A stretch of 32,404 bases of DNA from a virus, in IMG/VR virus record IMGVR_UViG_3300030328_002136, positions 1 to 32,404 of that record; one strand, 5' to 3'. Within the stretch, counting starts at the first letter, position 1. Each line of letters starts with the position of its first letter. The position numbers and the translations under genes were made by a program. The notes under the pieces are model-generated. The model did not search any database and was not told where the DNA came from. It worked only from the letters and a program-made list of their open reading frames with translations. Of this stretch, positions 8,080 through 32,067 are shown one piece after another.

Positions 8080-8175
8080 TTATTTTACTTTTATTTTGTC
8101 AAATTCACTGTCGTAAATTGCCTTAGCATTTATTTCATCAGTGAACTCATCTACCTTAAGAATATTTTTCCACAT
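8080..8175 (-). CDS. 31-residue micro-protein with MWKNILK tag
   Basis: This short gene starts at ATG 8175, with AAGGAG ten bases upstream, and ends at TAA 8080. Its first residues MWKNILKV match the N-terminal tag found on many proteins to the right, and they are identical over eight residues, bar the last, to the protein beginning at 19528. After the tag come only about 23 residues, acidic then basic (VDEFTDEINAK...FDKIKVK). A strong ribosome site and the tag make it a real gene despite its size. It is the only tagged gene on the tail side of the capsid gene, and it follows the GTPase gene by two bases. It may be a minimal form of the tagged cargo or a competitor for the tag's partner (inference). 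Confidence 0.7.
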   Translation of the reverse strand: MWKNILKVDEFTDEINAKAIYDSEFDKIKVK

Positions 8176-8177
8176 AA

Positions 8178-8840
8178 TCAATACTCCTTAATCATCGTCA
8201 TTACGCCTCTATAGACCATTTCCGGTTGGGATTTAGCCGACACTATGTATTTGAAAGTTGGTATTCCTTTATCATTTAGCCGTTGCATCCCATATTTGAA
8301 AGGTTCGTATATACTATGGTTTTGCATATCCCCTTCTTCCTTGTATTTTTCTCCCCAAATGTCGAACTTATTAGCCCAAATACCTATCGCCATAGGGTAA
8401 TCATTATTCTTTTTCTTTTTTCCATCGGGCCAAACATCACTACAAATGCAGTCTACTAAATACTTCCACGCTAACTGATGGTCTAAATTAGCAGGGCTAT
8501 CTAAATGTCTATGGTCTATTACAAAAATAATATATTTTACATTTCTAGAACGGATGTCTTTAATCCATTCCTTCCAATATATTGCTTCGCCACCAATATC
8601 CGCAGTTTTCAAAGTATGTGTCTCCCCATCAACCTTTACAACTTTTCTTGTTGCTCTTTCTTTACCAACTGTTCTTTGTTTTATTTCGGGAACTTCACCC
8701 TTAGTTCTTAGTTGATGATGTAAAGTTGTTTTACCAACCATTGTAGCACCATAAATACCGAAGTGAATAGCATGTATTCTCTTGTAAAAAGCCACTGTTG
8801 CTTCAATTACTACTACAGCAAAACCGGCTAGAACAGACAT
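8178..8840 (-). CDS. Membrane-anchored Arf-like small GTPase
   Basis: The chosen start is ATG 8840 (220 residues); a TTG at 8876 has no ribosome site. All five GTPase motifs are present: P-loop G31-x4-G36-K37-T38, switch-I Thr at T57, G3 motif D81-I-G-G84 followed by Glu and a Trp four residues on, G4 N157-K-F-D160 and G5 S201-A-K. The DxGG-then-Trp pattern is that of Arf/Sar proteins rather than Ras or translation factors; the usual catalytic Gln after GG is Glu here, so hydrolysis may be slow. A hydrophobic segment (residues 2-18) could anchor it in a membrane. Two membrane protein genes lie directly upstream. A GTPase of this kind inside a virus structural cluster is unusual. What it moves or gates is unknown. 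Confidence 0.85.
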   Translation of the reverse strand: MSVLAGFAVVVIEATVAFYKRIHAIHFGIYGATMVGKTTLHHQLRTKGEVPEIKQRTVGKERATRKVVKVDGETHTLKTADIGGEAIYWKEWIKDIRSRNVKYIIFVIDHRHLDSPANLDHQLAWKYLVDCICSDVWPDGKKKKNNDYPMAIGIWANKFDIWGEKYKEEGDMQNHSIYEPFKYGMQRLNDKGIPTFKYIVSAKSQPEMVYRGVMTMIKEY

Positions 8841-8847
8841 AATATCA

Positions 8848-9075
8848 CTAATGCCACATAAAATTCCAAATGGCAACTGTCTTATCTATTATCCAACCCA
8901 TCATATTAACATCGAAAACACCTAAGATGTTTCCAATTAGCAAACAAGAAAGTGAAATACAACTACCCCAAAACCACGCTCTCATTTTAAGAAACCAAAT
9001 ATCGGCGGAGTGCGCCCTGCTTTGGTTGTAAGCATAGTCCGAGTCGGAGAAACCCATTATGTCACTAAGAACCAT
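8848..9075 (-). CDS. Small membrane protein, unknown
   Basis: This 75-residue protein starts at ATG 9075 with the strong site GAGGTGG. A hydrophilic N-terminus (about 30 residues, with an Asp/Ser/Tyr cluster) is followed by a transmembrane segment around residues 33-52 (WGSCISLSCLLIGNILGVF) and a second weaker hydrophobic part near the end. It overlaps nothing and its stop lies eight bases before the GTPase start, so the two are likely co-translated. The arrangement suggests a partner for the GTPase in the cell membrane or in a membrane-containing structure. No family recognised. Confidence 0.65.
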   Translation of the reverse strand: MVLSDIMGFSDSDYAYNQSRAHSADIWFLKMRAWFWGSCISLSCLLIGNILGVFDVNMMGWIIDKTVAIWNFMWH

Positions 9076-9084
9076 TTAACCACC

Positions 9085-9495
9085 TCATTGAAGGGCAGTT
9101 AAGAAGTCGGCACTTACGCTATCACCTTCGTAGCCCGATTGAGAAACCATAGGTATTCTTTTCGTTTGGTTTTCACTTTGAAAGGATTTAAGAGATTCTT
9201 GCATCTTCTTTCTTTGTTGTTCATCCTTAGCAATTCTCTCCCAATAAGCACTAATTCTTCTATCCAAAAGCCACATCTCGATTTTATCATTGAGTGCCAT
9301 ATCGAATAGTGCCTTCATAACCATGATAGCACCAACGGTAATTAGTCCAAATAATACACCATGCATTAAAATAGTGTAAGGGAAGTTTAATCCGAACTTA
9401 GCATAAGCAAATACATTAGCACCGCTTACAGTGCCAACAAATAAGATAGTCATAATCAATCTAGTATCGTGGTTTAGAGCAGGTATAATAATCAC
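9085..9495 (-). CDS. Two-helix membrane protein with cytoplasmic coiled tail
   Basis: The frame runs to GTG 9495, whose ribosome site GAGGTGAT contains the start itself; ATG 9453 is an alternative with no strong site, so the first 14 residues are uncertain. Two transmembrane segments lie at about residues 14-33 (IMTILFVGTVSGANVFAYA) and 40-62 (YTILMHGVLFGLITVGAIMV). The remaining 70 residues are charged and helical (RIAKDEQQRKKMQESLK) with a Ser-rich end. The gene is followed by another membrane protein and the GTPase. Holin function was considered because of the size and two helices, but the long coiled tail and head-gene context do not favour it. Confidence 0.65.
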   Translation of the reverse strand: MIIIPALNHDTRLIMTILFVGTVSGANVFAYAKFGLNFPYTILMHGVLFGLITVGAIMVMKALFDMALNDKIEMWLLDRRISAYWERIAKDEQQRKKMQESLKSFQSENQTKRIPMVSQSGYEGDSVSADFLTALQ

Positions 9496-9496
9496 C

Positions 9497-9796: not shown

Positions 9797-9851
9797 ATAA
9801 TCACCTTTTACAAACAAGGGTAATTACAACATCTTAATGAAGGTTGCGTAA

Positions 9852-10283: not shown

Positions 10284-10292
10284 AGAAACACC

Positions 10293-10913: not shown

Positions 10914-10923
10914 TTAAAACACC

Positions 10924-12270
10924 TCAAGCCACATTGGTAATTTTGCCTTGACCCTTAAAGAAAGAACATCCAACTTCACCGATGGTTCGGTAAAGTGCTT
11001 GGTTTCCGAGACGACCAACACCGAATGGGTTTCCATTTGAAACACCGTCTTCAAAGTATTGAGTCGGCTTAAGAACAGAAAGCCATAGATGGTCTGTATC
11101 AAGGAAAAGCAAATCGCTAATTCCACTGTCCGAAGCATTCAAAGTTGAAGTCATATCCTTACAAGGAATAAGAGGGATGTCGTAGTAAGTTGCCACACGG
11201 AAACCAACTTCAGCACCCTTAATTCCACGAACACCGTTATGTGTCGGGATAATTTCTTTTCTATCCATGAATCTTTCTTGGCTTTGTAGCAAGTCAGCAA
11301 TTGCTTGGATAGTGTCATATCCTGTAAGAATACACTTAGGCGCACCACCGGCAATTCGCAAATTACGAATCATGTTGTTTAGCAAAGTAAGAGTCAATGG
11401 TCGAACCGAAGATGCCGCATAAGAAGAGTTAAAGTCTACTTCAGCATCAAGGAAAGAAGCCGCAGTATATCTCTCATCACCATAGATTTGAGCAAGTGCG
11501 TTTGTAGCATCATTCATTGTATCAGTCATAAGAACACCTGCATCAGCCGCAAGAAGTTCTGCTCGACTAGAAACAACCTTCAAAAGAGAAGTATAGTTTC
11601 TTTCAATGTTTGCTAGAGCCGCAACTTCACCATAAACTTGAACAGGCATAAGTAGCATTTTGTTTTGTGCCTCTGCGTGTGCTTTACCCATGTCTTCACG
11701 AATAATAGCCCGAATATCTCCGAGTCCATCATCAATTTGAGCCATTTCCATAGCAAGTTCGGAAATATCGAACTGATGTGCAATAGTCTTAGGACTCATA
11801 AATAGTTGAGCATAAGTTGGGGCCATAGAACCAAGTCCATCAGCCGCAGTAGATAGTCCTGCGTTTTCGGGAACTCCACCAATTTCATCAGCGTGTGGGT
11901 TTGCGCCACCAATTCCGTTTGCGGAAGAACCGTCACCAGTAATATCAACTGCAAGTTGAGAATCCGAACCACCAAAAGGTCGGCTCTTTAGGATTCTCCA
12001 ACCGGATGAAGTATAAGGTCGCTTTGATAGCATAGCGAGAGCATTTACTTCTCGGTTTAGCATAGACCAAACTTTCTGTCCGTATAGTTGGTTATACATT
12101 CCTGTTGTTGTTCCAATGCCAGTTACACCGCTTGCACCTGCATCAGCAATATCGTGAGCAGTGTGTAGTCCTTGAACTGCACCTGCTTGTTTCAATACAG
12201 AGTTTCCACCAAAGGCAGGTAGTCCGTATGTCGCCGCTTCTAAATCTCTAATCGTGTTAATATATCCCAT
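10924..12270 (-). CDS. Major capsid protein (HK97 fold)
   Basis: This 448-residue protein starts at ATG 12270 with GAGGTGA as ribosome site. It lies right after the prohead protease, the usual order. The C-terminal half shows the expected capsid features: a helical stretch with a Gly-Gly turn (LNNMIRNLRIAGGAPKCILT), then RVATYYDIPLIPCKDM and a final beta-rich A-domain end GRLGNQALYRTIGEVGC. The N-terminal ~110 residues are Gly/Ala/Ser-rich with few charges and may be the arm/E-loop. No separate scaffold gene is evident downstream; the scaffold appears fused to the protease. It forms the icosahedral shell, and would be the obvious partner of the tag described in the summary. Confidence 0.85.
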   Translation of the reverse strand: MGYINTIRDLEAATYGLPAFGGNSVLKQAGAVQGLHTAHDIADAGASGVTGIGTTTGMYNQLYGQKVWSMLNREVNALAMLSKRPYTSSGWRILKSRPFGGSDSQLAVDITGDGSSANGIGGANPHADEIGGVPENAGLSTAADGLGSMAPTYAQLFMSPKTIAHQFDISELAMEMAQIDDGLGDIRAIIREDMGKAHAEAQNKMLLMPVQVYGEVAALANIERNYTSLLKVVSSRAELLAADAGVLMTDTMNDATNALAQIYGDERYTAASFLDAEVDFNSSYAASSVRPLTLTLLNNMIRNLRIAGGAPKCILTGYDTIQAIADLLQSQERFMDRKEIIPTHNGVRGIKGAEVGFRVATYYDIPLIPCKDMTSTLNASDSGISDLLFLDTDHLWLSVLKPTQYFEDGVSNGNPFGVGRLGNQALYRTIGEVGCSFFKGQGKITNVA

Positions 12271-12280
12271 TTAATTCACC

Positions 12281-13456
12281 TCAAATGTTACCGCCGACTG
12301 CTTTATGAATATCACTCCAAGACATTTCAGCAATCTCTTCTGTAGAGAATACCTTTGTTGTTGAAGCGGCTTCTGTAGCCTTGCGGATTGTATTTTTTTC
12401 TTCTGTAAGTGATTTGCGAAGTTCTGCAAATTCACTTGTAAGTGCGTTAATTTCTGCTTGAGCGTCGTATTCCGACTTAGCAACCATTTCTTCTCGATGA
12501 GCAGTTTCGTTTGCGAATCTCTTAGCAAAAGTTCCGGCTAGATTATCATAAGCCAACTTTTCTAGTTGTTCGGCTCGGAATTGAGCGTATGCCTTTTCAA
12601 TGTTTTCAGCACTCAAATTAAGAGTGTTAAACTCGGAGTTGTCAAAGGCCTTTGAAACCATACCTTCTTTCTTTGCTTGAGAACCTGCTTGTTCCATAAG
12701 TTCTCCCGCACCACCGAGGTTTTCATCATCATTGCCATCCACAGTAGTAGACTTAGCCTCGGAATCCATGTATTCCATAGTTTCTTCTTCTTCTGTTTCC
12801 ATTTTCTCGTTAAGAGGGTGTGGCTCTGCCATTTCCAACTCTTCCGGTTCTTCTTCTTTTCGTAGCGTATTGACTTCCTCAAGTAGAGTGTCAAGTTCAG
12901 CCAATGCTTTTTCTAATTTATTCATTTTTTTGTCCTCCTTTAATATGTCAAACCTCGCTTCGGGATTGATTCCTTTTTCACATATGGTTACTTCATGCAG
13001 TTCAAGTTTGCTTATTTCACTATACTCGCCTAATTCCGCATGATGCTTCTTTACTTTTTGTAACGCTTGTCCTCCAATGCTAAAACTTCTCAATGTCCCT
13101 TTGCGAATGCCTCTGTTTATTTCTTTTGCTTTTTCGATGTCATCTCTTAATTTTATTACTACAAAAAAACCGACATCATCTACTTCTGTTTTCCATAATT
13201 TTCCACTTGTATCTCTATATGATTGAATTACTTCTCCGACTTGAACATTTGAGTGGTTTGTCATTACATTCCTAAACTTGTTCTTCTCCATGAATTTTTC
13301 TACTGCTTCATTAAGTGCTTTGAGTGTGATTAGGTCGTTTTGTTTATCCACCATTTCAATAGAAGCATAACCACCAATCATTAAATCATTATTCGCTTTA
13401 ATGATTGTAAAGTCATTCTCCTTATCCGCCAGTATTGTATTTAGCATCCGGCTCAT
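12281..13456 (-). CDS. Prohead protease fused to scaffold, with C-terminal MSW tag
   Basis: This 391-residue protein has two parts. Residues 1-170 are an HK97-type serine protease: H68 in NVMTNHSNVQVGEV, the serine in TLRSFSIGG (S126, with S124 possible), and the closing LHEVTICEKGINPEA with E154 and the expected Asn-Pro. Residues 178-370 are a long acidic helical/coiled region typical of scaffold (delta) domains: LEKALAELDTLLEEVNTLRK and further Glu-rich runs. The last 14 residues start with MSWSDIHK, the same motif as the tag found at the N-termini of fifteen other proteins, and the C-terminal helix of a scaffold commonly contacts the shell. The start was chosen at ATG 13456; ATG 13447 is also possible. 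It precedes the capsid gene. Confidence 0.85.
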   Translation of the reverse strand: MSRMLNTILADKENDFTIIKANNDLMIGGYASIEMVDKQNDLITLKALNEAVEKFMEKNKFRNVMTNHSNVQVGEVIQSYRDTSGKLWKTEVDDVGFFVVIKLRDDIEKAKEINRGIRKGTLRSFSIGGQALQKVKKHHAELGEYSEISKLELHEVTICEKGINPEARFDILKEDKKMNKLEKALAELDTLLEEVNTLRKEEEPEELEMAEPHPLNEKMETEEEETMEYMDSEAKSTTVDGNDDENLGGAGELMEQAGSQAKKEGMVSKAFDNSEFNTLNLSAENIEKAYAQFRAEQLEKLAYDNLAGTFAKRFANETAHREEMVAKSEYDAQAEINALTSEFAELRKSLTEEKNTIRKATEAASTTKVFSTEEIAEMSWSDIHKAVGGNI

Positions 13457-13476
13457 CCCATCTTTTTTTTATTCGA

Positions 13477-16002
13477 CTATTTAACTGATTCCCTATTATC
13501 GGGTAAATCTAAACCTAAATACTTGTCTTTATAGATATTCCATATCCCTTCATCAGTATCTTTATCTACAGGTTTTTGTTCATAACCAGTCCAAGCCAAC
13601 CACATTTTCTGTTCATTAACAGGTATTACTCTAAAGTGTATTTTGGTATCGAACTTATTACCCTTGATAATATATTCATGGTAGCCATGTCTTTGAACAC
13701 CAATCTCTACTTCCCCTTCATCTATCAATTGACCCCTATCAATACTCTTAGATATTTTAGCAGGGTATTTATTGGCCTTACCAAACAAAGAAAAGATGTC
13801 ATCATCATTAGGTAAATCAATAAGCCAAGAAAGAGTCTCTCCTTTATGGCTAATAATAAAATCTAAATTATCATCCTTTCTAGAATATATTTTAAATTCG
13901 GACATCTCTTTAGCAATATCTGTTGGGTCTACATGTAATTTACCCTCGGAGAAACTAATTCCTTCTCTTTGATTCGCCCAATTCTTTAGGTCTTTAGTAG
14001 AAGCATGTCCTAAAATCTTCATCATTTTAGTAGAATCACTATCAAAAAGAGTCTCATATTCACTAGGCATAGCGGCTAATAAGTAGTCGTGGATTTCTTT
14101 AGGGGTTTGAGAGCCTTTGTATTTTAGTCGGTTTTTTATTGCAGTTGTAATTTTACCTTGTAGTGTCTTTAAAGTAGCCTCTGCCTCTTGCTTCCACATA
14201 TCCAAATCAGCCAAAGCATTCTTAGACATTAAATTGTCTTCTTCAAAACCATAAATTGTAAATCCATCCATAGACTTTAGAATAATTGTAGCCTCTCCGT
14301 GTATATTATCAGTTATTGTAATTCCTTTAGTTAATGCTTCTACTTTATACTTTAATGATTTTTTAGTGTCTTTAGATAACATCTCTAGAGTTACTACTTT
14401 ATCGGGAGTTTCTACTTCGGGAACTTCAATAACATTTGCCGAGTATAATGTAAATCTATCATCCGATTGTTTTACCTCATCTACCTTAACTCTAATAATA
14501 TCGCCAATGTTCACATTTGTTTTAGTGTTAAGTGCTTTACCAACATTCATGTAAAGTTTATCATTGAGTTTTACAATATGTTTTCCTTCTTCTAATACCG
14601 GCCCTGCCCCTAAAGTGTATGAGTATAGTTTAGATTTAGTAGACTTCTTATCAAGGACTATCATATCCAAATCAACAAACTTCTTCCACTTAACCCACTT
14701 AGGGTTCTTTTTAGTTCCAATGAAATAAGTAGAAGTTAAGTCTTTGATAACAACCCCTTCGGCTGTCGGCATATCCATAATCTCTTTAGCATACTCTTCA
14801 ATGTCTTTTAGAGAGTCAGCAGTTCTAGTGTCTTTCTTAGAAGGGAAATGTAAAAACTCGGATGACTTTGCCGAGTAATTATTGAATAGTATGTTTATCC
14901 GTTGTTCTAATTCTTCATCAGTCATGTTCTTTTCTTCATGGCGCATAATGTCAAAGACATGTGCTTTCAATTTAGCATCGGGATATTTATTTTTGAAAAC
15001 ATGTGCAATCGTATCTGCTCTATGAAGTGCTTCATCACCGTCGAAAAGAATTAACTCTGCATCCAATATACAATCTCCGTATGATTTTTTCTTCATTTCA
15101 GTAACTTGATTAGGGCATTTATCGGTAATGTCCTTTTCATTGTAAGAATAGATTTTAACTTGGTCGTCTATTTTATGTATCTGTATTCTCATACCATCAT
15201 ACTTTTCTTGAACGATGTAGTCACCGGAAAAACCTTGTAGTTCTTTCATATCATCAATGTCAAATATCCTATACATTGGTTTGTTCGGGACAATAAAGTG
15301 AGAGATTGATTTTTCTTCTGTGGATTTTTTCTCGGATTTTTTCAATTCCACTTGAAGTAGTTTATTCCAATCCTCTTCGGAATACTTGTGAAGGTATGCT
15401 TTTTCAAGTGATTTCAATGCCTGTTTAAATTTAGCCTCTACCTTCTTACTATCCTTATCATCACCATAATGTTCTATGATAAACAAAGGTATGTCCTTTA
15501 CTTGAAGGTCTAATCCATCTAATCCATCAGTAATATCGTCGGCTTGAAACTCAATGCTCTCATAGCAATCCTCGGATAGTGCGTCATCATCGGAACGAAT
15601 GGCATAATGAATAAACTTTACAAATGTGCTTTCATCGGATAAAAGACCCTCTAATACATTACCTTTGAACTTCTTAGCGAATGGGTCATTTACATTTTCC
15701 GAATCAAAACGCATTTGTTTCACTGCTTCATAAATTATTTTTGCAGTTCCACTTGAAGGACTACCTGCATCATCAGCCTCAACATGGCGTTCATCAAGAT
15801 ATTCTTTTATCTCTTTACCCAAAGGAGATATAGAATCGTAAGCATCTTTTACTTCTTCTAGAGCGTTTCTCCAACGACCCCCGTATTCTTTAGGGTCTGT
15901 TCTTGCGGATAAATAGGCTACTCGCACCTTTTCAAAAAGAGAAAGTATTTCATTTGAGATTGGGTTGCTGTCCTTCTCAAACATTAAGCCAGTGGTTGCC
16001 AT
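13477..16002 (-). CDS. ATP-dependent DNA ligase with long N- and C-terminal extensions
   Basis: This 841-residue protein starts at ATG 16002 with GTGAT upstream. The adenylation lysine is K267 in the motif EKYDGMR; motif III is near D314-A-E-L, motif IIIa near F350-D-I-M, motif IV EGVVIK (415-420) and motif V KWVKWKK (435-441), followed by an OB fold to about residue 540. Reaction: ATP-dependent sealing of DNA nicks through a ligase-AMP intermediate. Residues 1-240 would correspond to the DNA-binding domain. About 300 residues after the OB fold are extra; part of that region (about 690-820) has a beta-rich character that loosely recalls a phosphoesterase-like domain of some ligases, but I cannot establish this. 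It lies between two head genes, an odd place for a replication enzyme. It carries no tag. Confidence 0.85.
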   Translation of the reverse strand: MATTGLMFEKDSNPISNEILSLFEKVRVAYLSARTDPKEYGGRWRNALEEVKDAYDSISPLGKEIKEYLDERHVEADDAGSPSSGTAKIIYEAVKQMRFDSENVNDPFAKKFKGNVLEGLLSDESTFVKFIHYAIRSDDDALSEDCYESIEFQADDITDGLDGLDLQVKDIPLFIIEHYGDDKDSKKVEAKFKQALKSLEKAYLHKYSEEDWNKLLQVELKKSEKKSTEEKSISHFIVPNKPMYRIFDIDDMKELQGFSGDYIVQEKYDGMRIQIHKIDDQVKIYSYNEKDITDKCPNQVTEMKKKSYGDCILDAELILFDGDEALHRADTIAHVFKNKYPDAKLKAHVFDIMRHEEKNMTDEELEQRINILFNNYSAKSSEFLHFPSKKDTRTADSLKDIEEYAKEIMDMPTAEGVVIKDLTSTYFIGTKKNPKWVKWKKFVDLDMIVLDKKSTKSKLYSYTLGAGPVLEEGKHIVKLNDKLYMNVGKALNTKTNVNIGDIIRVKVDEVKQSDDRFTLYSANVIEVPEVETPDKVVTLEMLSKDTKKSLKYKVEALTKGITITDNIHGEATIILKSMDGFTIYGFEEDNLMSKNALADLDMWKQEAEATLKTLQGKITTAIKNRLKYKGSQTPKEIHDYLLAAMPSEYETLFDSDSTKMMKILGHASTKDLKNWANQREGISFSEGKLHVDPTDIAKEMSEFKIYSRKDDNLDFIISHKGETLSWLIDLPNDDDIFSLFGKANKYPAKISKSIDRGQLIDEGEVEIGVQRHGYHEYIIKGNKFDTKIHFRVIPVNEQKMWLAWTGYEQKPVDKDTDEGIWNIYKDKYLGLDLPDNRESVK

Positions 16003-16008
16003 ACTAAA

Positions 16009-16501: not shown

Positions 16502-16729
16502 TCAATTCCTCCCATTAACAAACTTATCAATATCACTCCAACTCATTTTATGGATTGAATCAGTATCGGGAACTTGATTGTTATTCATAGAAGGAGTCGG
16601 TGAATCTACTACAACAAAACCGGACTTCATCAAAAGATTATCTTTATTGTAGACTGCGGTTTCCAACTCTTTAATTCTAGAAACCAATTCCTTCAAAATA
16701 ACCAACATATCTTCACTTGTTTCACTCAT
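16502..16729 (-). CDS. 75-residue coiled-coil protein with C-terminal MSW tag
   Basis: The start is ATG 16729 (overlapping the previous gene's end by eight bases). The order is: a coiled coil (residues 5-28, MLVILKELVSRIKELETAV), a flexible segment with Ser, Pro and Asn, and a final 14 residues beginning MSWSDIDKFV. That end is nearly identical in register to the end of the protease-scaffold protein (MSWSDIHKAV), in both cases 14 residues before the stop. This looks like a small scaffold-type protein that carries the capsid-binding end. It may share a partner with the scaffold. Function inferred only. Confidence 0.7.
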   Translation of the reverse strand: MSETSEDMLVILKELVSRIKELETAVYNKDNLLMKSGFVVVDSPTPSMNNNQVPDTDSIHKMSWSDIDKFVNGRN

Positions 16730-17072
16730 CTCTCAAATCCCCCTTTCTCTTTGGATATACAATTTGTCGCAAATCTCTATACAACAACTCATACTCCTTA
16801 CGAAGTTTGCTCGACAACGCAACCATATCAATGTTCCTCTCATCAATACTTACGAACTTCTTTTTCATTTTATCATCGGATTTAACTAAATCCAAGTCTC
16901 TTAGAAGGTCAATCAATTCACCCATTCGGGTAAAGTCTTGACCGAAGTATTCTGTCGGTTCAGCCGATTGAAGAGTTTTCTTCAAGGACTTTTTCTTCTT
17001 CTTATCTAGTCCTTCTAGTATCGGACTGTATTCTTTTTCAATGCTTTCTTTTAGTATATATTCCCAAGTCAT
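16722..17072 (-). CDS. MTWEYILK-tagged protein, helical, unknown
   Basis: This 116-residue protein begins at ATG 17072, overlapping the stop of the preceding gene as ATGA, with GAGGAAGG just upstream. Residues 1-8 are the tag MTWEYILK. The rest is helical and charged, with a Lys-rich stretch (KKKKKSLKKTL) and a second helix LRKEYELLYRDLRQ. It is encoded just before the short C-terminally tagged coiled-coil protein, so tag-bearing proteins of both kinds are made side by side. Function unknown. Confidence 0.7.
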   Translation of the reverse strand: MTWEYILKESIEKEYSPILEGLDKKKKKSLKKTLQSAEPTEYFGQDFTRMGELIDLLRDLDLVKSDDKMKKKFVSIDERNIDMVALSSKLRKEYELLYRDLRQIVYPKRKGDLRDE

Positions 17073-18968: not shown

Positions 18969-19172
18969 TCATTCCTCTTTCTTCTTACAAGAATTGCATA
19001 GTAGTATGTGTTTTCCTCGCTTGCTTTTATTTGTGTTTCTCAATGCGACTCTAGCCCCACATTTATCACACTTTTTGCTTTTACTAGTTGTGTCTTTACC
19101 CCGTTTAGGTTGGCTCTGTAAATATCTTTTATACCTTGAAGGGTCTACTTTAATAATATCTTTCCAAGTCAT
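18969..19172 (-). CDS. MTWKDIIK-tagged zinc ribbon protein
   Basis: This 67-residue protein starts at ATG 19172 (TAATG overlap) behind AAGGAG. The N-terminal tag MTWKDIIKV is followed by a basic linker (SQPKRGKDTTSKSKK) and a zinc ribbon with C35-x2-C38 and C59-x2-C62 and a Lys-rich end. The zinc ribbon can bind DNA or protein. It is one of several small tag-plus-zinc proteins in the window. Confidence 0.75.
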   Translation of the reverse strand: MTWKDIIKVDPSRYKRYLQSQPKRGKDTTSKSKKCDKCGARVALRNTNKSKRGKHILLCNSCKKKEE

Positions 19173-19528
19173 TATCTTCGTCTCCTTTGTCCTTTTCTTC
19201 TAGGTTTTCTTGAGTCTTTCATTTGTTGAAACTTTCTTTTTTGTTCCCTTTCTGTTTGTTCTCTTACTGCCCTATTGTATGATTTAATATCTACGGCGGG
19301 TATTGTATAAATCTCTTGCCAATTGGGGCTGTGGCTTCGGAAAATTAAGGTAGAGGAATTATTTGAAATATTATATTCTCTTGCTATTTTTTGAATTTTA
19401 GCCCAACCTAACTGATTTGGCTCTCTTGCCAATTCAACAATTTTATTTTTTTCTAAGTCTCTAAAGAAACCGCTAAAGTCTGCAATTTCTTCCTTAGATA
19501 TATCTGTCTTTAGTATATTTTTCCACAT
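19172..19528 (-). CDS. MWKNILK-tagged protein with Arg-rich tail
   Basis: The start is ATG 19528 (MWKNILKT); its A overlaps the portal stop as TGATG and GGAGG lies eight bases upstream. After the tag the 118-residue chain has a mixed region, a possible helix-turn-helix (WAKIQKIAREYNIS), a short strand-rich part (STLIFRSHSPNWQEIY) and a very basic C-terminal end (KPRRKGQRRRR). The Arg-rich end suggests nucleic-acid binding. It follows the portal gene. Confidence 0.7.
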   Translation of the reverse strand: MWKNILKTDISKEEIADFSGFFRDLEKNKIVELAREPNQLGWAKIQKIAREYNISNNSSTLIFRSHSPNWQEIYTIPAVDIKSYNRAVREQTEREQKRKFQQMKDSRKPRRKGQRRRR

Positions 19529-21165
19529 CAAGGAATCCTCCTTTCACTTCTTCTATCCACATTTTGATTTCCTGCATCAGCCGGTAATCCTGTCATTCGC
19601 TTATCCGGCCCTACACTCATTGAAGGTTTATTCCTTGTGGTTGCAGGATTCTCTTGAGGGGTAGAACCTCCCTCCATCATTGTTCTCATGTTCTCATCTA
19701 AATCCCGTTGGTCTAAATTAGAACCGGCCAACGGGTCTACGCCACTTTCAGCCTTACTTTCTTCTTGTTGAGGTTCTTCTACAGGTTCCGGCTTCTTGAA
19801 AGTAAATTGTCCGTCTTCATCCATATCAACTTCAAATCCTAGATTCTTTACAGAGGCCGCAATATTAACTTCTATCTCTCTTTTGCGAAGACCGGCTATT
19901 TCATCTTCTTCTTCACTTGGAGGTAGTTTCAATACCCAATCAGTAATTCCAAATTGCTTAACTAAGAACGGGAATACATAATTATTGTAGACATTTTGAG
20001 CCATTTGAACTGCTCGATTAGTAACAAGTATTTGCATACCTTCATTGTTCAATCCACCACTAGTAGTATTGTCAGCCATGAAGACTTTACTCACTCCATA
20101 GAATGCTGAAATCCTATCTCTTAAGTCATCCTTAACAGCCGTGTATTCCATCTCTTTTAGACTATCCATAAACTTAATCCATTCAACAGAGCCTTTTCCA
20201 TTCTCCGCCTCGATTCCCATAACAGGAATATAGTGTGGGTCTTGTTCCATTCTTTCTTTGACGCTTCTCCAAAAACTAGACATTGATTCCATGTTTCTAG
20301 TTTGGACTGCTAGCAAACCTCTAGGCATACGGCTCTTAGTGTAAGAAGAGTTAATGTAATTCTCCATAGCAATAAGAGTCATAATATGATTGAATAGTGT
20401 CATAACCGGAGAGTGGCCGTAAAGCCTACTAGGACTATACTTACTGAAATGTAAGACTTCCCCTTCAATGTAATTTTGTTCTTCTCCGTTGGCTCTATTG
20501 ATGTAATGTATAGGGAAAAGTGGACTGTTACAATCGGGACAATTTTCATGTGGTTCTTGGCTGATGTGACTTCTATGATTAATACAGGTAAATCCTTTTG
20601 TTCCTCTAATTCCTAATTCATCAGCGTAGATGCTCATAGTAACAGGGTCGCCTCTAAACAATTCTTTTATTCGGTGCATACGGATTTTACCATTACCGTC
20701 TAAATAGTATTCCTTGACAAGAACAATGTAAGCATCATCCATAATGTTTAGGTCGTCTTCTAATTCTTTAAAGACATCAATGAAGAGTTGTTCGGACTTA
20801 TTGACATATCCTTCAATAAACTTTTCAGCATACTCTAATTGTTTAGGGTCGGGTTTCTTTAGGTCTGTAGAACCACACCTTGCACATTCTGTAACGGGTC
20901 TTTTATGTGTCTTTTGGCATTCATTACATCGGGCTTCGTATGCCTTTTCCCAAACATAGCCTCTACGGAATATCTCTTGTTTTAATTGAGTGATACAGGT
21001 TCGGACAATAACAGACTGTTGGGTGATGTTATAGACCATTGGCCCTGTCATCATGTAAGAGTTTTCACGCTCTTGTATTCCAATATTGTAGACCTTTCTA
21101 TCAGCCGGTTTAGGGGTAGACCGTCTAAACAAATTGCTTATTTTGAATTGTCTCTTTTCCGCCAT
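19528..21165 (-). CDS. Portal protein with two zinc knuckles
   Basis: This 545-residue protein (start ATG 21165, MAEKRQF) is the portal that makes the DNA entry ring at one head vertex. Supporting features: length, position two head genes after the terminase, the N-terminal region with YMMTGPMVYNITQQSVI, a helix-rich centre (SSYTKSRMPRGLLAVQ), and the conserved motif PVMTLFNHIMTLIAMENY. Two zinc-binding loops are unusual: C80-x2-C83 with C94-x2-C97, and C194/H197 with C209-x2-C212. The C-terminal 80 residues are flexible, with Gln, Pro and Asn. A longer reading to 21174 lacks a good start site. The zinc loops might strengthen the ring or contact the terminase or tail adaptor. Confidence 0.8.
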   Translation of the reverse strand: MAEKRQFKISNLFRRSTPKPADRKVYNIGIQERENSYMMTGPMVYNITQQSVIVRTCITQLKQEIFRRGYVWEKAYEARCNECQKTHKRPVTECARCGSTDLKKPDPKQLEYAEKFIEGYVNKSEQLFIDVFKELEDDLNIMDDAYIVLVKEYYLDGNGKIRMHRIKELFRGDPVTMSIYADELGIRGTKGFTCINHRSHISQEPHENCPDCNSPLFPIHYINRANGEEQNYIEGEVLHFSKYSPSRLYGHSPVMTLFNHIMTLIAMENYINSSYTKSRMPRGLLAVQTRNMESMSSFWRSVKERMEQDPHYIPVMGIEAENGKGSVEWIKFMDSLKEMEYTAVKDDLRDRISAFYGVSKVFMADNTTSGGLNNEGMQILVTNRAVQMAQNVYNNYVFPFLVKQFGITDWVLKLPPSEEEDEIAGLRKREIEVNIAASVKNLGFEVDMDEDGQFTFKKPEPVEEPQQEESKAESGVDPLAGSNLDQRDLDENMRTMMEGGSTPQENPATTRNKPSMSVGPDKRMTGLPADAGNQNVDRRSERRIP

Positions 21166-21216
21166 AACACTCATCCCCGTCTATGTTGTAATATCACGCC
21201 TTTTTAATACTACCCG

Positions 21217-21504
21217 TCACCAAAGTTTCTTACAGGCTAAACATTTAGGAGTTTTAATCTCGCCTTTACATTGGTCGCATTTATGTCTTGCTTTAAAATT
21301 AGCCCTGCGGTCTTCATCAGTATGAGTTCCACCGCCTCTATTCTTTCCTTTACCTTTGTAATTGCCATATCCTTCAGCACCTGCATGAATTTTTTTATCT
21401 TCGACAGTTCGCATCATAATTTTTTTACCTTCTCTATCTGAAGGATATACTTTACCTTGCACCATATCTTCTTTATCTTTCTTGAGAACTTTTTTCCAAA
21501 TCAT
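21217..21504 (-). CDS. MIWKKVLK-tagged zinc ribbon protein
   Basis: This 95-residue protein starts at ATG 21504 (TAATG overlap with the upstream gene) behind GGGGGGAG. The tag MIWKKVLKK is followed by a basic, flexible middle rich in Gly (YGNYKGKGKNRGGGTH) and a C-terminal zinc ribbon C76-x2-C79 with C88-x2-C91. The rest of the protein has no clear fold. It is read immediately before the portal gene. Confidence 0.75.
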   Translation of the reverse strand: MIWKKVLKKDKEDMVQGKVYPSDREGKKIMMRTVEDKKIHAGAEGYGNYKGKGKNRGGGTHTDEDRRANFKARHKCDQCKGEIKTPKCLACKKLW

Positions 21505-21887
21505 TATACTCCCCCCAATTTTTCTCTAATCATTTTATCTCTAATAGAATCCCATTTTTTAGAAGGTTGAGGAACCATTCTTAATTCGGGCATAGTTCTC
21601 ATTTCCTCATCAACATCTCGCTCAATTCTTCCTCGCTCGTCTTTCATTTCATTGTCTATTTTTCTATGTAGTTCTCCCATTGTCTGTTCGGGAGTCTTAC
21701 TTTCAACTTCAATAGCATACTCCATAGGCTCTATTAATAACCAAGCGGGATGCCCGTAAGTTTCTTGGAGAAGAATGTATTTAGATTCCAGTTCTGTCAA
21801 ATCTTCATCACTAATTGTAGAAAGGATTTCTTTAGGATATTGGTTTCTCCAATAGTATTCTTTTTTAAGAATCTCTTGCCAACTCAT
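21504..21887 (-). CDS. MSWQEILK-tagged helical protein, unknown
   Basis: This 127-residue protein starts at ATG 21887, overlapping the previous stop as ATGA, with GGGGAGAA upstream. The tag MSWQEILKK is followed by a helical N-terminal half (SDEDLTELESKYILLQETYG) and a charged coiled segment with repeated Asp/Glu/Arg (RGRIERDVDEEMR). The last part has a Pro-rich turn, then a basic helix. Function unknown. Confidence 0.7.
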   Translation of the reverse strand: MSWQEILKKEYYWRNQYPKEILSTISDEDLTELESKYILLQETYGHPAWLLIEPMEYAIEVESKTPEQTMGELHRKIDNEMKDERGRIERDVDEEMRTMPELRMVPQPSKKWDSIRDKMIREKLGGV

Positions 21888-22285
21888 TCTTCTCCCCTCA
21901 ATTGATTTTCCTTTGAAGTCTTATCGTTATCAATAGGGCCACCTTTAGCCCAAGTGTAGCAGGTTCTCGCTGAATGACATTTAAAATCGTGCATCCAACA
22001 ATAACCTAAACGACCGTCTTTATCTGTAGAAAGCGGCATACATTCATCCATTCTAGGTGAAATATCAAAAGCAATACAATTACTACAATTTGATTCTTTA
22101 GCAACATCAGCAGTAGTATTCCATTGTTTAGCATATCGTTCCCAATAATCCTTATCGTCTAAATTAAGAGGGCCGTATTGAATATGTTTTTCTTTAACAG
22201 CCCTATCTCTATTTTTAGTATTGAGTTTCAAGTCTTGAGTCGCTCTAGGACAAGCGAGTTCCTTTAGGATGATATGCCAAGTCAT
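21884..22285 (-). CDS. MTWHIILK-tagged Cys-rich protein
   Basis: This 133-residue protein starts at ATG 22285 (ATGA overlap). The tag MTWHIILKEL is followed by a chain of six cysteines in the second half: C67, C70, C82, C96, C103 and C109, plus C12. The motif NCSNCIAFDISPRMDECM leads to GYCWMHDFKCHSARTCYTW and a GGP turn. This could bind an Fe-S cluster or two zinc ions. The pattern resembles other small Cys-rich phage proteins, but I cannot name the family. The seven cysteines and strong ribosome/tag context suggest a functional cofactor site. Confidence 0.7.
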   Translation of the reverse strand: MTWHIILKELACPRATQDLKLNTKNRDRAVKEKHIQYGPLNLDDKDYWERYAKQWNTTADVAKESNCSNCIAFDISPRMDECMPLSTDKDGRLGYCWMHDFKCHSARTCYTWAKGGPIDNDKTSKENQLRGEE

Positions 22286-22416
22286 GCTGTAAATGGCCCC
22301 CTTCTTTTACTACTCTTTCTTTTTTTATCTTTACAAGCAGGGCATGTTGGCTTACATTTTTTCCCACATGGTTTTTTATTGGTAGGCTTAACCCTTAGAA
22401 TATTTTGCCAAGTCAT
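22282..22416 (-). CDS. 44-residue MTWQNILR-tagged micro-protein with four cysteines
   Basis: The gene starts at ATG 22416 with GGGGATGAG upstream and stops at TGA 22282, overlapping the next ATG. The tag MTWQNILRV (Arg in place of Lys) is followed by C17-x3-C21-x3-C25-x2-C28 in a Lys/Pro background, and a basic end (KKRKSSKRRG). It is likely a zinc knuckle or a metal-binding peptide. Strong ribosome site, ATGA overlap and the tag argue that this very short gene is real. Confidence 0.65.
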   Translation of the reverse strand: MTWQNILRVKPTNKKPCGKKCKPTCPACKDKKRKSSKRRGPFTA

Positions 22417-23904: not shown

Positions 23905-23913
23905 AAAAAATCC

Positions 23914-24033
23914 TCACAATAACTTAGGGGTAAAATCAGTAATATTATTTTTTAGCAAAATAACTTCTATCAAACTTAACGCTAGGTCTTCTTCATTAAC
24001 CTTCGCCAATTTCAATATTTCAAGCCAAGACAT
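23914..24033 (-). CDS. 39-residue MSWLEILK-tagged micro-protein
   Basis: This gene starts at ATG 24033, overlapping the end of the upstream gene by 14 bases, and stops at TGA 23914. The tag MSWLEILKLAK is followed by a short hydrophobic helical tail (LALSLIEVILLKNN). The ribosome site is weak (GGGGG about ten bases upstream), so expression may depend on translational coupling. Almost the whole product is tag plus one helix. It may be a minimal binder to the tag's partner. Confidence 0.6.
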   Translation of the reverse strand: MSWLEILKLAKVNEEDLALSLIEVILLKNNITDFTPKLL

Positions 24034-24598
24034 TAGAAAAAACCCCCTTGTTTTCATTAATCATAAATCGAGAAATAAGTCCAATATTTACAACGGGTGA
24101 GGCTATACCATTAGATTTCAAATATTCTTTAATCATATTATAGTTATCCAATACTTTACTCTCTATGTCAGCCCCTATTAGTTTAGGTATTTTTTCTTTA
24201 GAAACCCAGTTTTTAAATTTGTCATTAACATTAGCGTGACCCAAAACCATTAGCCAAGTGCCTAAAGGAGAATACCCTCTAGCGGCATTAGCCCCTATTT
24301 CGTGCATGGTATGTCCTATTGATGCCAATTCTTCGGGAGTGTAATTACCAATGTTATTTTCTAAATACTCCATCCATGCTTCAGTTACTTCATCATCAAT
24401 TGCTTCATGGGCATATTCTTCTGTTAGAGTTTCTACTAAGTTATCAACAAATTCATCTTCACTTAAACCCATGCTAGTAGCAAAGTCTTTGTTGGCTAAG
24501 TTGATGGTTACTTCCTTTGTATTCCTATTGTAATGACCCCCCTCACTATCATCGGGCCTAAAAACAAAATTAGTTTTTAATATGTCTTGCCAAATCAT
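24020..24598 (-). CDS. MIWQDILK-tagged zincin-like protein, active site altered
   Basis: This 192-residue protein starts at ATG 24598 with GAGGTG upstream. The N-terminal tag MIWQDILKT is followed by a beta hairpin and helix layout (GHYNRNTKEVTINLANKDF) typical of small zinc metalloproteases, and the helix LVETLTEEYAHEAIDDEV. The protease motif would be HExxH; here the same position reads E60-E61-Y-A-H64, so the first zinc ligand has become Glu. A further Glu or Asp (E65 or D68/D69) could be a ligand, but activity is doubtful. It may be an inactive relative with a structural or inhibitory role. The call is an inference from pattern. Confidence 0.55.
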   Translation of the reverse strand: MIWQDILKTNFVFRPDDSEGGHYNRNTKEVTINLANKDFATSMGLSEDEFVDNLVETLTEEYAHEAIDDEVTEAWMEYLENNIGNYTPEELASIGHTMHEIGANAARGYSPLGTWLMVLGHANVNDKFKNWVSKEKIPKLIGADIESKVLDNYNMIKEYLKSNGIASPVVNIGLISRFMINENKGVFSNVLA

Positions 24599-24607
24599 AA
24601 TTACACC

Positions 24608-26029
24608 TCAAAAGTTTAATCCCATTATTCCGCCACGCCTATTATTAACAGGCGCATCAAATAATCCCAAGTCATCTAGCAATAAGAATGTTTCACTCAC
24701 TGTTTTAGTGGCGGCATTCGCTAAAGCCAAACTCATAACCATGTCGTCATGTGCGCCAACCCCCTCAAATTTGCCTTTGTCTGTAATAGCAAACATAGAT
24801 AATTCTTCTATTAAAGTAGCAGTAACTCTTCTACTTTCTTCATTACCATAAGGCAAATGTATCTTTTGATTTTCAAAGTTCATCTGTAGATTTAAAATAA
24901 TATCCTGTTTCTTTTTTCTAGTGGTGTTGAAGTCATGCACATTTAAATCTGATATGTTCCTCAACTCTTGAGTGAAAGACTTTGCGAATACATTTGTTTC
25001 AAACAGTATTACCTCCGGTTGAAATATTTTACCAATCAGTCGAACTTTCTGTAAGTTTTCTCTAAACTCTACATTCTTTGCTCTGTCAATATAAACAATA
25101 TTCTTGTTGTCATTCTCATCTACTTCTAATACAGTAATCACATTGTAGTCACCATCAGTAGAGATAGCAGGGTCAATACCAACATAATATTTGTAGCCCT
25201 CTCTCCTTGTTGGTTTCAAAACAAAGTTTTTATTTTTAGCCGACTCTAAGTATTCGGGATTGAATAGAGATGTTCCTGTAGAAACAGGAACACATAGATA
25301 TTCTCTTGTAAATTTCAAAGAACCAATTTCAGCCTTTCTAGCCATAAGAGAATCATAATCCCATCTGTTCGGCCAAAGCGGTTCATTCAATGAATTAAAA
25401 CAAGGGTATTTTCTTACAGTATATGCTTCATTTTCTTCTAGTTGAGCATAAATATCTGTATAACTGAAAGGAGTTCCAATGACTCTTAATGATGCTGTAT
25501 GGTGAAGTGTCGGTATCATGTCACCATAAAACCAATCAGTAACTTTTTGAATTGCACTAAGACTAAACTCTTTCAAAGGGTCATCAATAACAATCTCTTG
25601 AGGGTGAAGTCCACGAATCTGTGAACCAACGGAACGCTCTAAGATTTGGTTTCCATTAGTAAGAGTAATGTTACCAATAGCCCAACCCTTAGCAGGTTTG
25701 AAATGTTTAATTGCAGGGTGGTTGAATACCTTATCTATGTCTCTCATGTGAACCATAGTCTGTTTTTGGTTCGATGAAATGTATAGCATTTGATATGGAG
25801 GTGGCTGAAATATTAAATTCCAAACAACCCAACTGTGCATGAAGACTGATTTACCGTGACCTCTACTACAAATGATAACTGTTCTTTGCGTTTCATTCAT
25901 AAGTTCTAGCCACTCTTGCTGATGAGCCGCAAAGTCCCAACCTAAAACATGTTCAAAAAAATACGGGAACGATGTCTTGGATAGTTCCATATCCATTTGA
26001 TGTTCTAAGTTGAAGCCTTCTATCTCCAT
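24608..26029 (-). CDS. terL: Large terminase subunit (TerL)
   Basis: The start is ATG 26029 (MEIEGFNLEH), behind GGTGAT; upstream in-frame starts belong to the previous reading. The 473-residue protein packs DNA into the head. The ATPase domain shows Walker A CSRGHGKS (54-61) and Walker B IVIDD (146-150). The nuclease domain begins with the acidic motif GIDPAISTDGDYN (D286) and continues through VILFETN and a C-terminal acidic motif GAHDDMVMSLALA. The order of domains and spacing are normal. The portal is about 3.4 kb downstream in the same transcription direction. The small terminase subunit was not identified; one of the small proteins upstream may fill that role. Confidence 0.9.
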   Translation of the reverse strand: MEIEGFNLEHQMDMELSKTSFPYFFEHVLGWDFAAHQQEWLELMNETQRTVIICSRGHGKSVFMHSWVVWNLIFQPPPYQMLYISSNQKQTMVHMRDIDKVFNHPAIKHFKPAKGWAIGNITLTNGNQILERSVGSQIRGLHPQEIVIDDPLKEFSLSAIQKVTDWFYGDMIPTLHHTASLRVIGTPFSYTDIYAQLEENEAYTVRKYPCFNSLNEPLWPNRWDYDSLMARKAEIGSLKFTREYLCVPVSTGTSLFNPEYLESAKNKNFVLKPTRREGYKYYVGIDPAISTDGDYNVITVLEVDENDNKNIVYIDRAKNVEFRENLQKVRLIGKIFQPEVILFETNVFAKSFTQELRNISDLNVHDFNTTRKKKQDIILNLQMNFENQKIHLPYGNEESRRVTATLIEELSMFAITDKGKFEGVGAHDDMVMSLALANAATKTVSETFLLLDDLGLFDAPVNNRRGGIMGLNF

Positions 26030-26033
26030 GTAA

Positions 26034-26384
26034 TCACCGCTTAAATCTAATGACATCGAATAACTCTCTTTCAACAAATGAACCTAAAATAACATTGTTT
26101 CTTTTCGATAGTTCTTCTAGTTGGTCGAATAATAATTTCCGGTCATATGTTTTTCCATCAACTGTTAAAGCCTTATTTATATCATTAGTGTTTAAATAAA
26201 TTGCAGGTAAATTACCCTTAATGTAAGATTGCCCGATGCCTGTAGTTCCCATTGTAGCGGCTATTTTATATTCTCCTTTAGGGATTTTTTTAACCATAGG
26301 CAAAACTAAACCATATATGTTTTTTTTAATAACATTAGAATGTTCTACGGCCAATTGTTGTTTTAATATGCTAAACCAAACCAT
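26034..26384 (-). CDS. MVWFSILK-tagged protein, unknown
   Basis: This 116-residue protein starts at ATG 26384, with AGGTGATT upstream, and ends at TGA 26034, in the terminase ribosome site. Residues 1-8 are the tag MVWFSILK. The rest has a strand-rich centre (GEYKIAATMGTTGIGQS; GNLPAIYLNTN) and a helical C-terminus (RKLLFDQLEELSKRN). It is directly upstream of the terminase. The small terminase subunit was considered for its position, but small terminases usually begin with a helix-turn-helix that I do not see. Function unknown. Confidence 0.65.
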   Translation of the reverse strand: MVWFSILKQQLAVEHSNVIKKNIYGLVLPMVKKIPKGEYKIAATMGTTGIGQSYIKGNLPAIYLNTNDINKALTVDGKTYDRKLLFDQLEELSKRNNVILGSFVERELFDVIRFKR

Positions 26385-26389
26385 GTTAA

Positions 26390-28828: not shown

Positions 28829-28830
28829 AA

Positions 28831-30759: not shown

Positions 30760-30800
30760 TTAAGACTCCACCTATTCTTTCGCACAACCCCATACTTCAA

Positions 30801-30825
30801 ATAGTTATCATTGAATAACAACTAT
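30801..30825. repeat. Imperfect inverted repeat at end of a tagged gene
   Basis: The bases atagttat and ataacaactat face each other around cattga, giving a weak stem with a three-base bulge. The repeat covers the stop codon (30824-30822) of the upstream gene and sits in the longest gene-free gap of the window (30760-30821). It could slow transcription or protect a transcript end, but there is no following T-run in the transcribed direction, so it is not called a terminator. The rest of the gap holds only the ribosome site of the next gene. Confidence 0.3.
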
Positions 30826-31109
30826 AGCGTTTTCCAATTACCATCCCAATTTGGCTTATCCAATGTGAACTTTAATCCGGCACTCATATTCCTATTGAGT
30901 TCTCTTACTAATCTACTTTTTACGGAGTTGAACTCCGACCTAGTATCTTTTCCCTCCCAATCAACAGCCATATCATATTTTTCTGTCAATATTCTATTTG
31001 CTTCTTCTTCTATAGCATTCAAATAAGTTTCTCGACCCAACCATTTTTCTTTAGAACGCTGTAATACTTGTTCCCATTCTGTGCTTTTGATTATGTTTTT
31101 CCAACTCAT
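30822..31109 (-). CDS. MSWKNIIK-tagged protein, unknown
   Basis: This 95-residue protein starts at ATG 31109 with GGAGG upstream. The tag MSWKNIIKS is followed by a mostly helical body (TEWEQVLQRSKEKWLG; YLNAIEEEANRILTEKY) and a C-terminal region with Lys/Asp/Trp residues. It is the first of the row of tag-bearing genes met from the left of the right-hand block, and uses the same start-region sequence as its neighbours (AATTACAATGAGTTGG). Function unknown. Confidence 0.7.
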   Translation of the reverse strand: MSWKNIIKSTEWEQVLQRSKEKWLGRETYLNAIEEEANRILTEKYDMAVDWEGKDTRSEFNSVKSRLVRELNRNMSAGLKFTLDKPNWDGNWKTL

Positions 31110-31121
31110 TGTAATTCCTCC

Positions 31122-31445
31122 TTAAGCATAGTCTTCAAGGATAGTATCAATGTCCTCATCGTAATTACTAGCCACTTCTTCCCAATCTACATCATTAAGA
31201 GAATCAACTGAACCATCCGAATCTTCTCTTTCTAATTCTTCCATGAAACCTTCCATGTGAATCATTATACTAGCAAGCCAATTTGCTAGTTGCTCAAGAG
31301 TCTCTTCTTTATCATACCCGCTTTTAACTAATGATTTTATTTTAGCCAATACTTCTCTATAAACGGATTCTTCATTCATAACCCAAAGTTCTGCTGAACG
31401 AGTAGCAGTAGTAATACTCTTCTTCAATGTTCTTTTCCAACTCAT
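31122..31445 (-). CDS. MSWKRTLK-tagged acidic protein, unknown
   Basis: This 107-residue protein starts at ATG 31445 behind AGGAGAG. Tag: MSWKRTLKK. The body is helical with a hydrophobic/amphipathic centre (LANWLASIMIHMEGFMEEL) and a strongly acidic C-terminus (about residues 70-107). The acidic end contrasts with the basic tag. Function unknown. Confidence 0.7.
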   Translation of the reverse strand: MSWKRTLKKSITTATRSAELWVMNEESVYREVLAKIKSLVKSGYDKEETLEQLANWLASIMIHMEGFMEELEREDSDGSVDSLNDVDWEEVASNYDEDIDTILEDYA

Positions 31446-31456
31446 TGTAATCTCTC

Positions 31457-31777
31457 CTAAACCATTTCATCTAAAGTCATATTGTTAAGTTTCATATTTC
31501 CAATAGCAAATAAAGCCTTTCGTTGTTCTAAAAGACCTTTTCTTCCATCATCGCTGAATCTATCAAACTCTTCAGTATTTATTCTTTCCTCACTATTAAG
31601 AATCCCCAATAGTGTTTTTGCTCTTGAATGTGTGTCTTTAGCATTCATAACAGTCTCTTTAACATAATCGTCGCTTCCATCATCGTAGTATTTGCTATAA
31701 TAATTTACTAATGACAATAACATCATATTAGTTAAATCTTCCATACCGCCATCTTTCAATATTCTTTTCCAAGTCAT
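31457..31777 (-). CDS. MTWKRILK-tagged protein, unknown
   Basis: This 106-residue protein starts at ATG 31777 (ATGA overlap with the previous gene) behind CAGGAGAG. The tag MTWKRILKDGG is followed by a helical body (MEDLTNMMLLSLVNYYSKYY), a charged loop, and a C-terminal helix (GLLEQRKALFAIGNMKLN). No motif recognised. Shares its start-region repeat with its neighbours. Confidence 0.7.
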   Translation of the reverse strand: MTWKRILKDGGMEDLTNMMLLSLVNYYSKYYDDGSDDYVKETVMNAKDTHSRAKTLLGILNSEERINTEEFDRFSDDGRKGLLEQRKALFAIGNMKLNNMTLDEMV

Positions 31778-32067
31778 TGTAATCTCTCCTGTCTATATTT
31801 ATCTAAAGAATCAGTTTCTTGATACTCTTGTAAAAATTCCATAACTGCTTGAACACAACGATAAGTTAGCATATATTCTGCACCTTCTAATTCTTCTTCT
31901 TCTGTCACTTCTATAATATCTTCAATTTCTCTCATTACAGGAGAAAGAATTGCTTTCACTTTGGCTAGTCCTTCTTTAGAAGTAGGTGTTGATGTAAGAG
32001 CCTGTCCTTTTAATGGTAATAAAAAGGAACTTGGGTTTAAGTCTTTTAAAATATCTTCCCAATTCAT
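31774..32067 (-). CDS. MNWEDILK-tagged protein, unknown
   Basis: This 97-residue protein starts at ATG 32067 (ATGA overlap) behind CAGGAGAG. The tag MNWEDILKDL is followed by a short Pro/Ser segment, then a helical, acidic region (VMREIEDIIEVTEEEELEG), and a C-terminal helix. It ends in QERLQ, encoded by the next gene's ribosome site. Function unknown. Confidence 0.7.
   Translation of the reverse strand: MNWEDILKDLNPSSFLLPLKGQALTSTPTSKEGLAKVKAILSPVMREIEDIIEVTEEEELEGAEYMLTYRCVQAVMEFLQEYQETDSLDKYRQERLQ

Follow-up and report, generated by a model that had tools for sequence, protein, structure and literature searches.

How phages choose the proteins that enter their heads is still called "mysterious", even for T4 (PMC9958956). 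We consider here a short peptide of the form MxWxxILK, which starts fifteen otherwise unrelated proteins in a 32,404-nucleotide stretch of viral DNA (the window; bases 1-32404 of the 40,429-base IMG/VR record IMGVR_UViG_3300030328_002136, with almost all genes on the minus strand). Judged by its genome layout, the source is a magrovirus, a tailed virus of the group tied to Poseidoniales archaea. Encapsulins, which are cellular compartments with one or few cargos, unlike magrovirus heads, use a short terminal peptide to dock cargo inside an HK97-fold shell. Their cargo-loading peptides serve as one comparison system (PMC8229669). In phage T4, the capsid targeting sequence (CTS) is, like the magrovirus tag, a peptide of about ten residues at the N-terminus of different proteins made with the head genes; as proposed below for the tag, it brings cargo into the prohead core, and its carriers are diverse and turn over quickly (PMC9026906, PMC9958956). 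The scaffold of phage 80alpha and the CpmB protein of SaPI1 have in common a C-terminal helix plus the motif RIIK, which binds the HK97-fold capsid protein directly, between the A and P domains, and a swap of the C-terminus largely transfers function (PMC5644958). An N-terminal segment of the phage P1 protein DarB is enough for a protein to enter the head, and this also works with a reporter (PMC9024508). For the prohead protease of SPN3US, the passages covered propose that its C-terminus targets the protease into the prohead; they describe a 64-residue cleaved propeptide and report no sharing of a motif with cargo (PMC7411985).

All fifteen tagged starts listed in an earlier note on this DNA are found, on the minus strand and in open reading frames (ORFs) of 31-192 residues (Table 1), most of them with a Shine-Dalgarno-like purine stretch 5' of the ORF. 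For the pattern M-x-W-x-x-[ILVMT]-[ILVM]-[KR], composition predicts 0.00012 matches per start, or about 0.005 in the roughly 45 genes; the presence of at least 14 tagged starts among these genes has a binomial P near 2e-44 under this composition model. The 40,429-base record gives 13 motif matches versus 0 for a reversed-pattern control, and about 12 more tagged genes lie in the remainder of the record (L009). In G001, two MW-tagged ORFs, both larger, occupy the place of the tiny tagged ORF at 8080..8175 of the window. A variant of the tag, M[ST]WKDEIKK, with Glu at position 6 and Ile at position 7 (L009 6635-6820; also G002 and G012), suggests that the register is looser than ILK.

The carriers are surveyed over about 280 partly overlapping related loci, with families defined by BLASTP without the first ten residues. 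The 954 distinct tagged proteins fall into 371 families, 254 of them singletons, and an alignment of 120 family representatives gives the consensus MxWxxILK and then no majority residue; the claim that the carriers share nothing beyond the tag therefore holds. Almost all of them are without a match in Pfam, PHROGs and PADLOC, and known domains appear as single cases (a GNAT acetyltransferase domain, a PAP2 phosphatase, a nucleotidyltransferase and an EF-hand-like stretch). With one representative per family (n=317 of the MxW form), residues 2-8 carry 1.3-6.8 bits of information each, and no position from 9 on exceeds 0.23 bits. There are preferences for S/T/N at position 2, K/E/Q at 4 and D/N at 5, the three positions that the search pattern leaves free, followed by I, L and K. 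Across 160 related loci (2.5 Mb), the strict motif is found 547 times near ORF starts, once internally and 8 times near a C-terminus; near starts, versions with F, Y, C or H in place of W number 6, 36, 5 and 8. Of 261 orthologues found by the body alone, 211 have the tag, and several others have W..ILK behind a different start.

At the level of codons, synonymous divergence (pS, over 304 orthologue pairs) is 0.54 for codons 2-8, 0.59 for codons 9-20 and 0.56 beyond. The codons for I6, L7 and K8 vary between copies, as the earlier note had observed for the window, and the usage at K8 equals background. Because the information ends sharply at residue 8 and synonymous change in the tag codons equals that elsewhere, it is the peptide that is conserved and not the DNA, which is the outcome that the note had expected of such a comparison. 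The best conserved carrier examined is a Cys-rich protein of 133 residues (tag MTWHIILK), in which W3 and K8 are invariant in 40 aligned orthologues. This protein has the Cys pattern CSNC...C...C...C...C and no Pfam or convincing PHROG match; by its Cys residues the family is possibly one of metal or Fe-S proteins, and its structure model is poor (pLDDT 45).

The location of the tagged genes is analysed in eight near-complete genomes of 87-96 kb, using a simple greedy ORF caller. On the strand of the major capsid protein (MCP), 107 of 592 ORFs are tagged, versus 1 of 593 on the opposite strand (Fisher P 2e-33), and 102 of these 107 lie 5-30 kb upstream of the MCP gene, where they constitute 36% of the ORFs. 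In the same genomes the tag is absent from all 104 ORFs located over 10 kb downstream of the MCP gene (the region of the tail module) and from all 59 located over 30 kb upstream. The enrichment near head genes that was sought is thus present: the tagged genes cluster with the head genes and avoid the tail and replication modules. Whether the big fast-evolving proteins of the head block have the tag differs between genomes, and the MCP, portal, terminase and tail tube proteins are untagged.

A similar motif, missed at first reading, stands at the C-terminus of the prohead protease, of the small protein p2 and of a third protein in L009. The protease of the window ends in MSWSDIHKAVGGNI, and M[SDNE]W[SAG][DE][IL][HN][KR] is found at the C-terminus of nearly all relatives; in an alignment of 52 protease sequences, M378 and W380 are the only invariant residues past residue 348. 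The end of p2 in other genomes is often letter-identical to that of the protease (MDWSDIHKMV). The third protein, R33437 (L009 1938-2927), has a terminal Trp motif (KSW in most relatives, KMW in some) that is kept though the body diverges to 22-46% identity. A fourth family, R32782, with the C-terminus PE[IV]WLDIKKKMQERLQ (PE[IV]WLDIKKKM..), matches the loose motif only and is less certain, and the remaining genes with a C-terminal match occur singly. The C-terminal matches number 37 on the MCP strand versus 2 on the opposite strand, and the F/Y controls 20 versus 24. In an AlphaFold model of the protease, an 83-residue helix (residues 283-365) is followed by a short helix (380-388) that contains the motif, and this modelled layout would suit a fusion of protease and scaffold that ends in a docking element. 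One sublineage (L041, L044, L047, L100, L129) has p2 ending in MSFDDMAKII, with Trp changed to Phe, and its protease ends in MSWADLNRLAGN; a lineage covariation is seen, in that p2 SFDDMAK occurs together with protease SWADLNR.

We propose, with a probability of about two in three, that the motif addresses proteins into the forming magrovirus head, and that cargo reuses the docking peptide of the scaffold/protease. The short sequence [ST]-W-x-x-[IV]-[LI]-K, which is probably helical, would dock proteins to the inside of the head as this assembles. The closely related C-terminal motif would dock the protease/scaffold and p2, most simply to the inner face of the MCP or to a core component. Dozens of unrelated accessory proteins would have acquired the motif, mostly at the N-terminus and in a few cases at the C-terminus. 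They would be built into the procapsid as cargo, remain with the genome and be delivered at infection. Candidates for the partner are the MCP, the portal and a core protein. A single partner likely binds both the N-terminal form (ILK) and the form of the protease and p2 (SDIHK), since the two are alike in sequence, terminal position and gene neighbourhood.

The earlier note had read the tag as a docking signal for one common partner, most simply a capsid-loading signal. Its docking part is well supported because of the peptide-level conservation, the hundreds of unrelated carriers, the placement at either terminus and the confinement to the head-gene strand. Its capsid-loading part is strengthened because the C-termini of the protease/scaffold and p2 have a closely related motif and the tagged genes avoid the tail and replication modules; packaging and delivery are still what we infer. 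The observation itself is confirmed and extended, and the capsid-loading interpretation, to which the protease/scaffold copy adds strength, is the best available one, if unproven. A broader claim is that a single scaffold-mimicking terminal peptide, usable at either end, fills the virions with many proteins whose set changes quickly (up to about 25 tagged genes per genome), and that these proteins are delivered with the genome into archaeal cells; the peptide would then be a general cargo-addressing code of an archaeal virus order. For this broader claim we would put the odds at even.

Several points weigh against the capsid-address reading. The protease model is poor (mean pLDDT 47, pTM 0.21, and about 60 for the motif helix). 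Five of the tagged genes are not upstream of the MCP gene but 0-10 kb downstream of it, and the large head-block proteins of the window (p17069, p26390, p28831 and a DNA ligase of 841 residues) are untagged. The ILK and SDIHK forms are similar and not identical, so that different partners or sites are possible. Positional conservation over the family representatives gives no conserved protease cleavage site after the tag, unlike in T4. The presence of the tagged proteins in virions is itself something that we infer, magroviruses being uncultured.

We turn to the distribution of the tag in hosts and other viruses. An origin of the tag in the host is rejected: 194 Thermoplasmatota genomes give 19 matches to the DNA pattern, at most one per genome, which is not clearly above the 12 given by the reversed pattern. 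A tag general to tailed archaeal viruses is also rejected: the head regions of the nearest named viruses, the Druskaviridae haloviruses HVTV-1, HCTV-1 and HCTV-5 together with vir335 and vir519, give no match. A tag common in other viruses is not supported by a scan of the whole of IMG/VR, where 71 of 80 loci among the matches listed carry magrovirus-like proteins. Among these same matches listed, nine loci are without such proteins; one of them (L274) is on the same contig as the magrovirus-like L216, and the contigs of the other eight have one match each. No description of the tag is found in the literature searched, which left out the main magrovirus papers (PMC5434244, PMC11706807), and an earlier description is possible.

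The same docking could serve another end. If the motif docks to the prohead scaffold or core, the carriers could be not cargo but helpers of assembly or substrates of the protease, lost at maturation by expulsion or degradation. This explanation has the same gene location and the same sharing with the protease/scaffold in its favour as the capsid-address reading, many carriers are small, and the core proteins of T4 are broken down as the head matures (PMC9026906). The turnover of families is, however, very high (254 of 371 are singletons), unlike that of essential assembly factors, and some carriers are enzyme-like (GNAT domain, PAP2, nucleotidyltransferase), which makes helpers or substrates rather unlikely. 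We regard as unlikely too, if by a shade less so, that the tag sends late proteins to a partner outside the capsid, such as a viral factory, the host membrane or a host complex that is taken over. An amphipathic W..IL.K segment at a terminus might attach to membranes or to a host protein, and the tagged families are orphan and fast-evolving, as host-interaction proteins would be. The invariant related C-terminus of the prohead protease and p2 would, however, be left unexplained, the tag is absent from the early/replication arm, where takeover proteins are also expected, and the pattern is not above background in the Thermoplasmatota genomes.

The remaining two explanations are very improbable. 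That the conserved start is a feature of the DNA or RNA, either a translation-initiation context or a duplicated 5' cassette including the ribosome-binding site, would account for the GGAGAGATTACA found before the ATG in several array genes and for the codon of Ser2, which is AGT in 87% of cases versus 28% in the background, so that a start-context effect does exist. Conservation at the DNA level and cassette duplication are nevertheless not supported: they are contradicted by the synonymous divergence of the tag codons, which is the same as in the rest of the genes, with several codons in use for I6, L7 and K8, and by the motif at C-termini, and most other tagged genes have dissimilar sequence upstream. 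In the last explanation the tag would not be a location signal; it would mark proteins for degradation or serve as a handle for a protease or chaperone, viral or of the host. This fits its terminal position and short length, and the prohead protease itself has a copy; it is, however, hard to see what would be gained by keeping a degron on hundreds of late proteins of the structural strand and on the protease, and the tag is not followed by a cleavage site. We give this explanation hardly any weight.

Compared with the systems described above, the tag is homologous neither to the T4 CTS nor to the RIIK of 80alpha/SaPI1, and its mode of action would be alike by analogy. With T4 it has in common a short N-terminal peptide on otherwise unrelated proteins of one virus. 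The sequence is different, the magrovirus tag is on up to about 25 genes per genome with a C-terminal form on the protease/scaffold, and no L/I-x-E removal site is seen, there being no positional conservation after residue 8-10. As in 80alpha, a short terminal helix with a motif is on different proteins, and the protease alignment and the low-confidence model place the motif at the scaffold C-terminus after a long helix. RIIK itself is not found in the protease, whose motif is W[SAG][DE][IL][HN][KR]; RIIK is on only two scaffolding proteins and only at the C-terminus, whereas the magrovirus motif is on hundreds of families, mostly at the N-terminus, with binding suggested by analogy. The DarB signal needs 10-30 residues and has no consensus among the Dar proteins, whereas the magrovirus tag has a clear eight-residue consensus.

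Hundreds of protein families in a virus group abundant in the ocean thus bear one eight-residue motif, and the protease/scaffold ends in a closely related one, so that head entry becomes a matter for simple peptide-binding and loading tests. If the capsid-address reading is true, it provides a one-line annotation rule for likely virion cargo among orphan genes, predicts which uncharacterised proteins affect the archaeal cell as infection begins, and offers a new loading tag for HK97-type shells.

The assignment of the virus rests on the following comparison. Magrovirales are viruses of Poseidoniales with genomes of about 90-110 kb, morphogenesis and replication modules on opposite strands, and an HK97-fold MCP, protease, TerL and portal; they are distantly related to Druskaviridae (PMC12999244, PMC10768690). 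The window genes include TerL, the portal, an S78 prohead protease, an SU10-like MCP and a tail tube protein. Relatives in IMG/VR are confirmed at 437 loci for the MCP and 234 loci for the terminase, on contigs of up to 80-97 kb, and relatives of 80-97 kb have two opposed arms of gene strands. Among named viruses, the Druskaviridae haloviruses HCTV-1, HCTV-5 and HVTV-1 have the nearest MCPs and proteases, at 24-30% identity. We assign the window to Magrovirales because the two opposed arms and Druskaviridae as the nearest named MCP and protease fit the published description.

Table 1. Tagged ORFs, C-terminal motifs and head genes of the window (positions in the window).
Feature	Peptide	Length (residues)	Position	Strand	Remark
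N-tagged ORF	MNWEDILK	97	31774..32067	-	
N-tagged ORF	MTWKRILK	106	31457..31777	-	
N-tagged ORF	MSWKRTLK	107	31122..31445	-	
N-tagged ORF	MSWKNIIK	95	30822..31109	-	
N-tagged ORF	MVWFSILK	116	26034..26384	-	
Terminase large subunit			24608..26077	-	untagged
N-tagged ORF	MIWQDILK	192	24020..24598	-	
N-tagged ORF	MSWLEILK	39	23914..24033	-	length from tag Met; in-frame ATG further upstream at 24057
N-tagged ORF	MTWQNILR	44	22282..22416	-	Cys-rich
N-tagged protein	MTWHIILK	133	21884..22285	-	Cys-rich; widely conserved family
N-tagged ORF	MSWQEILK	127	21504..21887	-	
N-tagged ORF	MIWKKVLK	95	21217..21504	-	
Portal protein			19528..21174	-	untagged
N-tagged ORF	MWKNILK	118	19172..19528	-	
N-tagged ORF	MTWKDIIK	67	18969..19172	-	zinc-ribbon-like
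N-tagged ORF	MTWEYILK	116	16722..17072	-	
p2		75	16502..16729	-	motif of same type at end
C-terminal motif of p2	MSWSDIDK		16523..16546	-	
Prohead protease (S78)			12281..13456	-	Peptidase_S78 match; C-terminal scaffold-like helix
C-terminal motif of protease	MSWSDIHK		12302..12325	-	
Major capsid protein			10924..12270	-	SU10-like HK97 fold family; untagged; candidate partner
N-tagged tiny ORF	MWKNILK	31	8080..8175	-	downstream of MCP gene

Some minor observations concern the neighbourhood of the tagged genes. The untagged 841-residue protein, which has an ATP-dependent DNA ligase domain, is encoded at 13477-16002 of the window, between the protease and p2 in the head block; relatives additionally carry a ligase-like protein of about 505 residues on the opposite strand, in the replication arm. 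Several tandem genes (window 31109-32381 and L009 565-1283) have GGAGAGATTACA or a near-copy before the ATG, and where these genes overlap it is read as the C-terminal QERLQ of the upstream protein. A second common N-terminal peptide, MNS[KR]DFRNIREAKK[IL]LK, starts two proteins that diverge afterwards (L009 5676-5999 and 6345-6638, minus strand) and also two proteins of another contig, L286, with the rest differing; it is perhaps a second address tag, or else the proteins are recent paralogues. Three contigs of metagenome-assembled genomes labelled Maricaulis and Altibacter (L170, L171, L172) have terminases 57-84% identical to that of the window, and by these terminases they look like misbinned relatives of the window virus.

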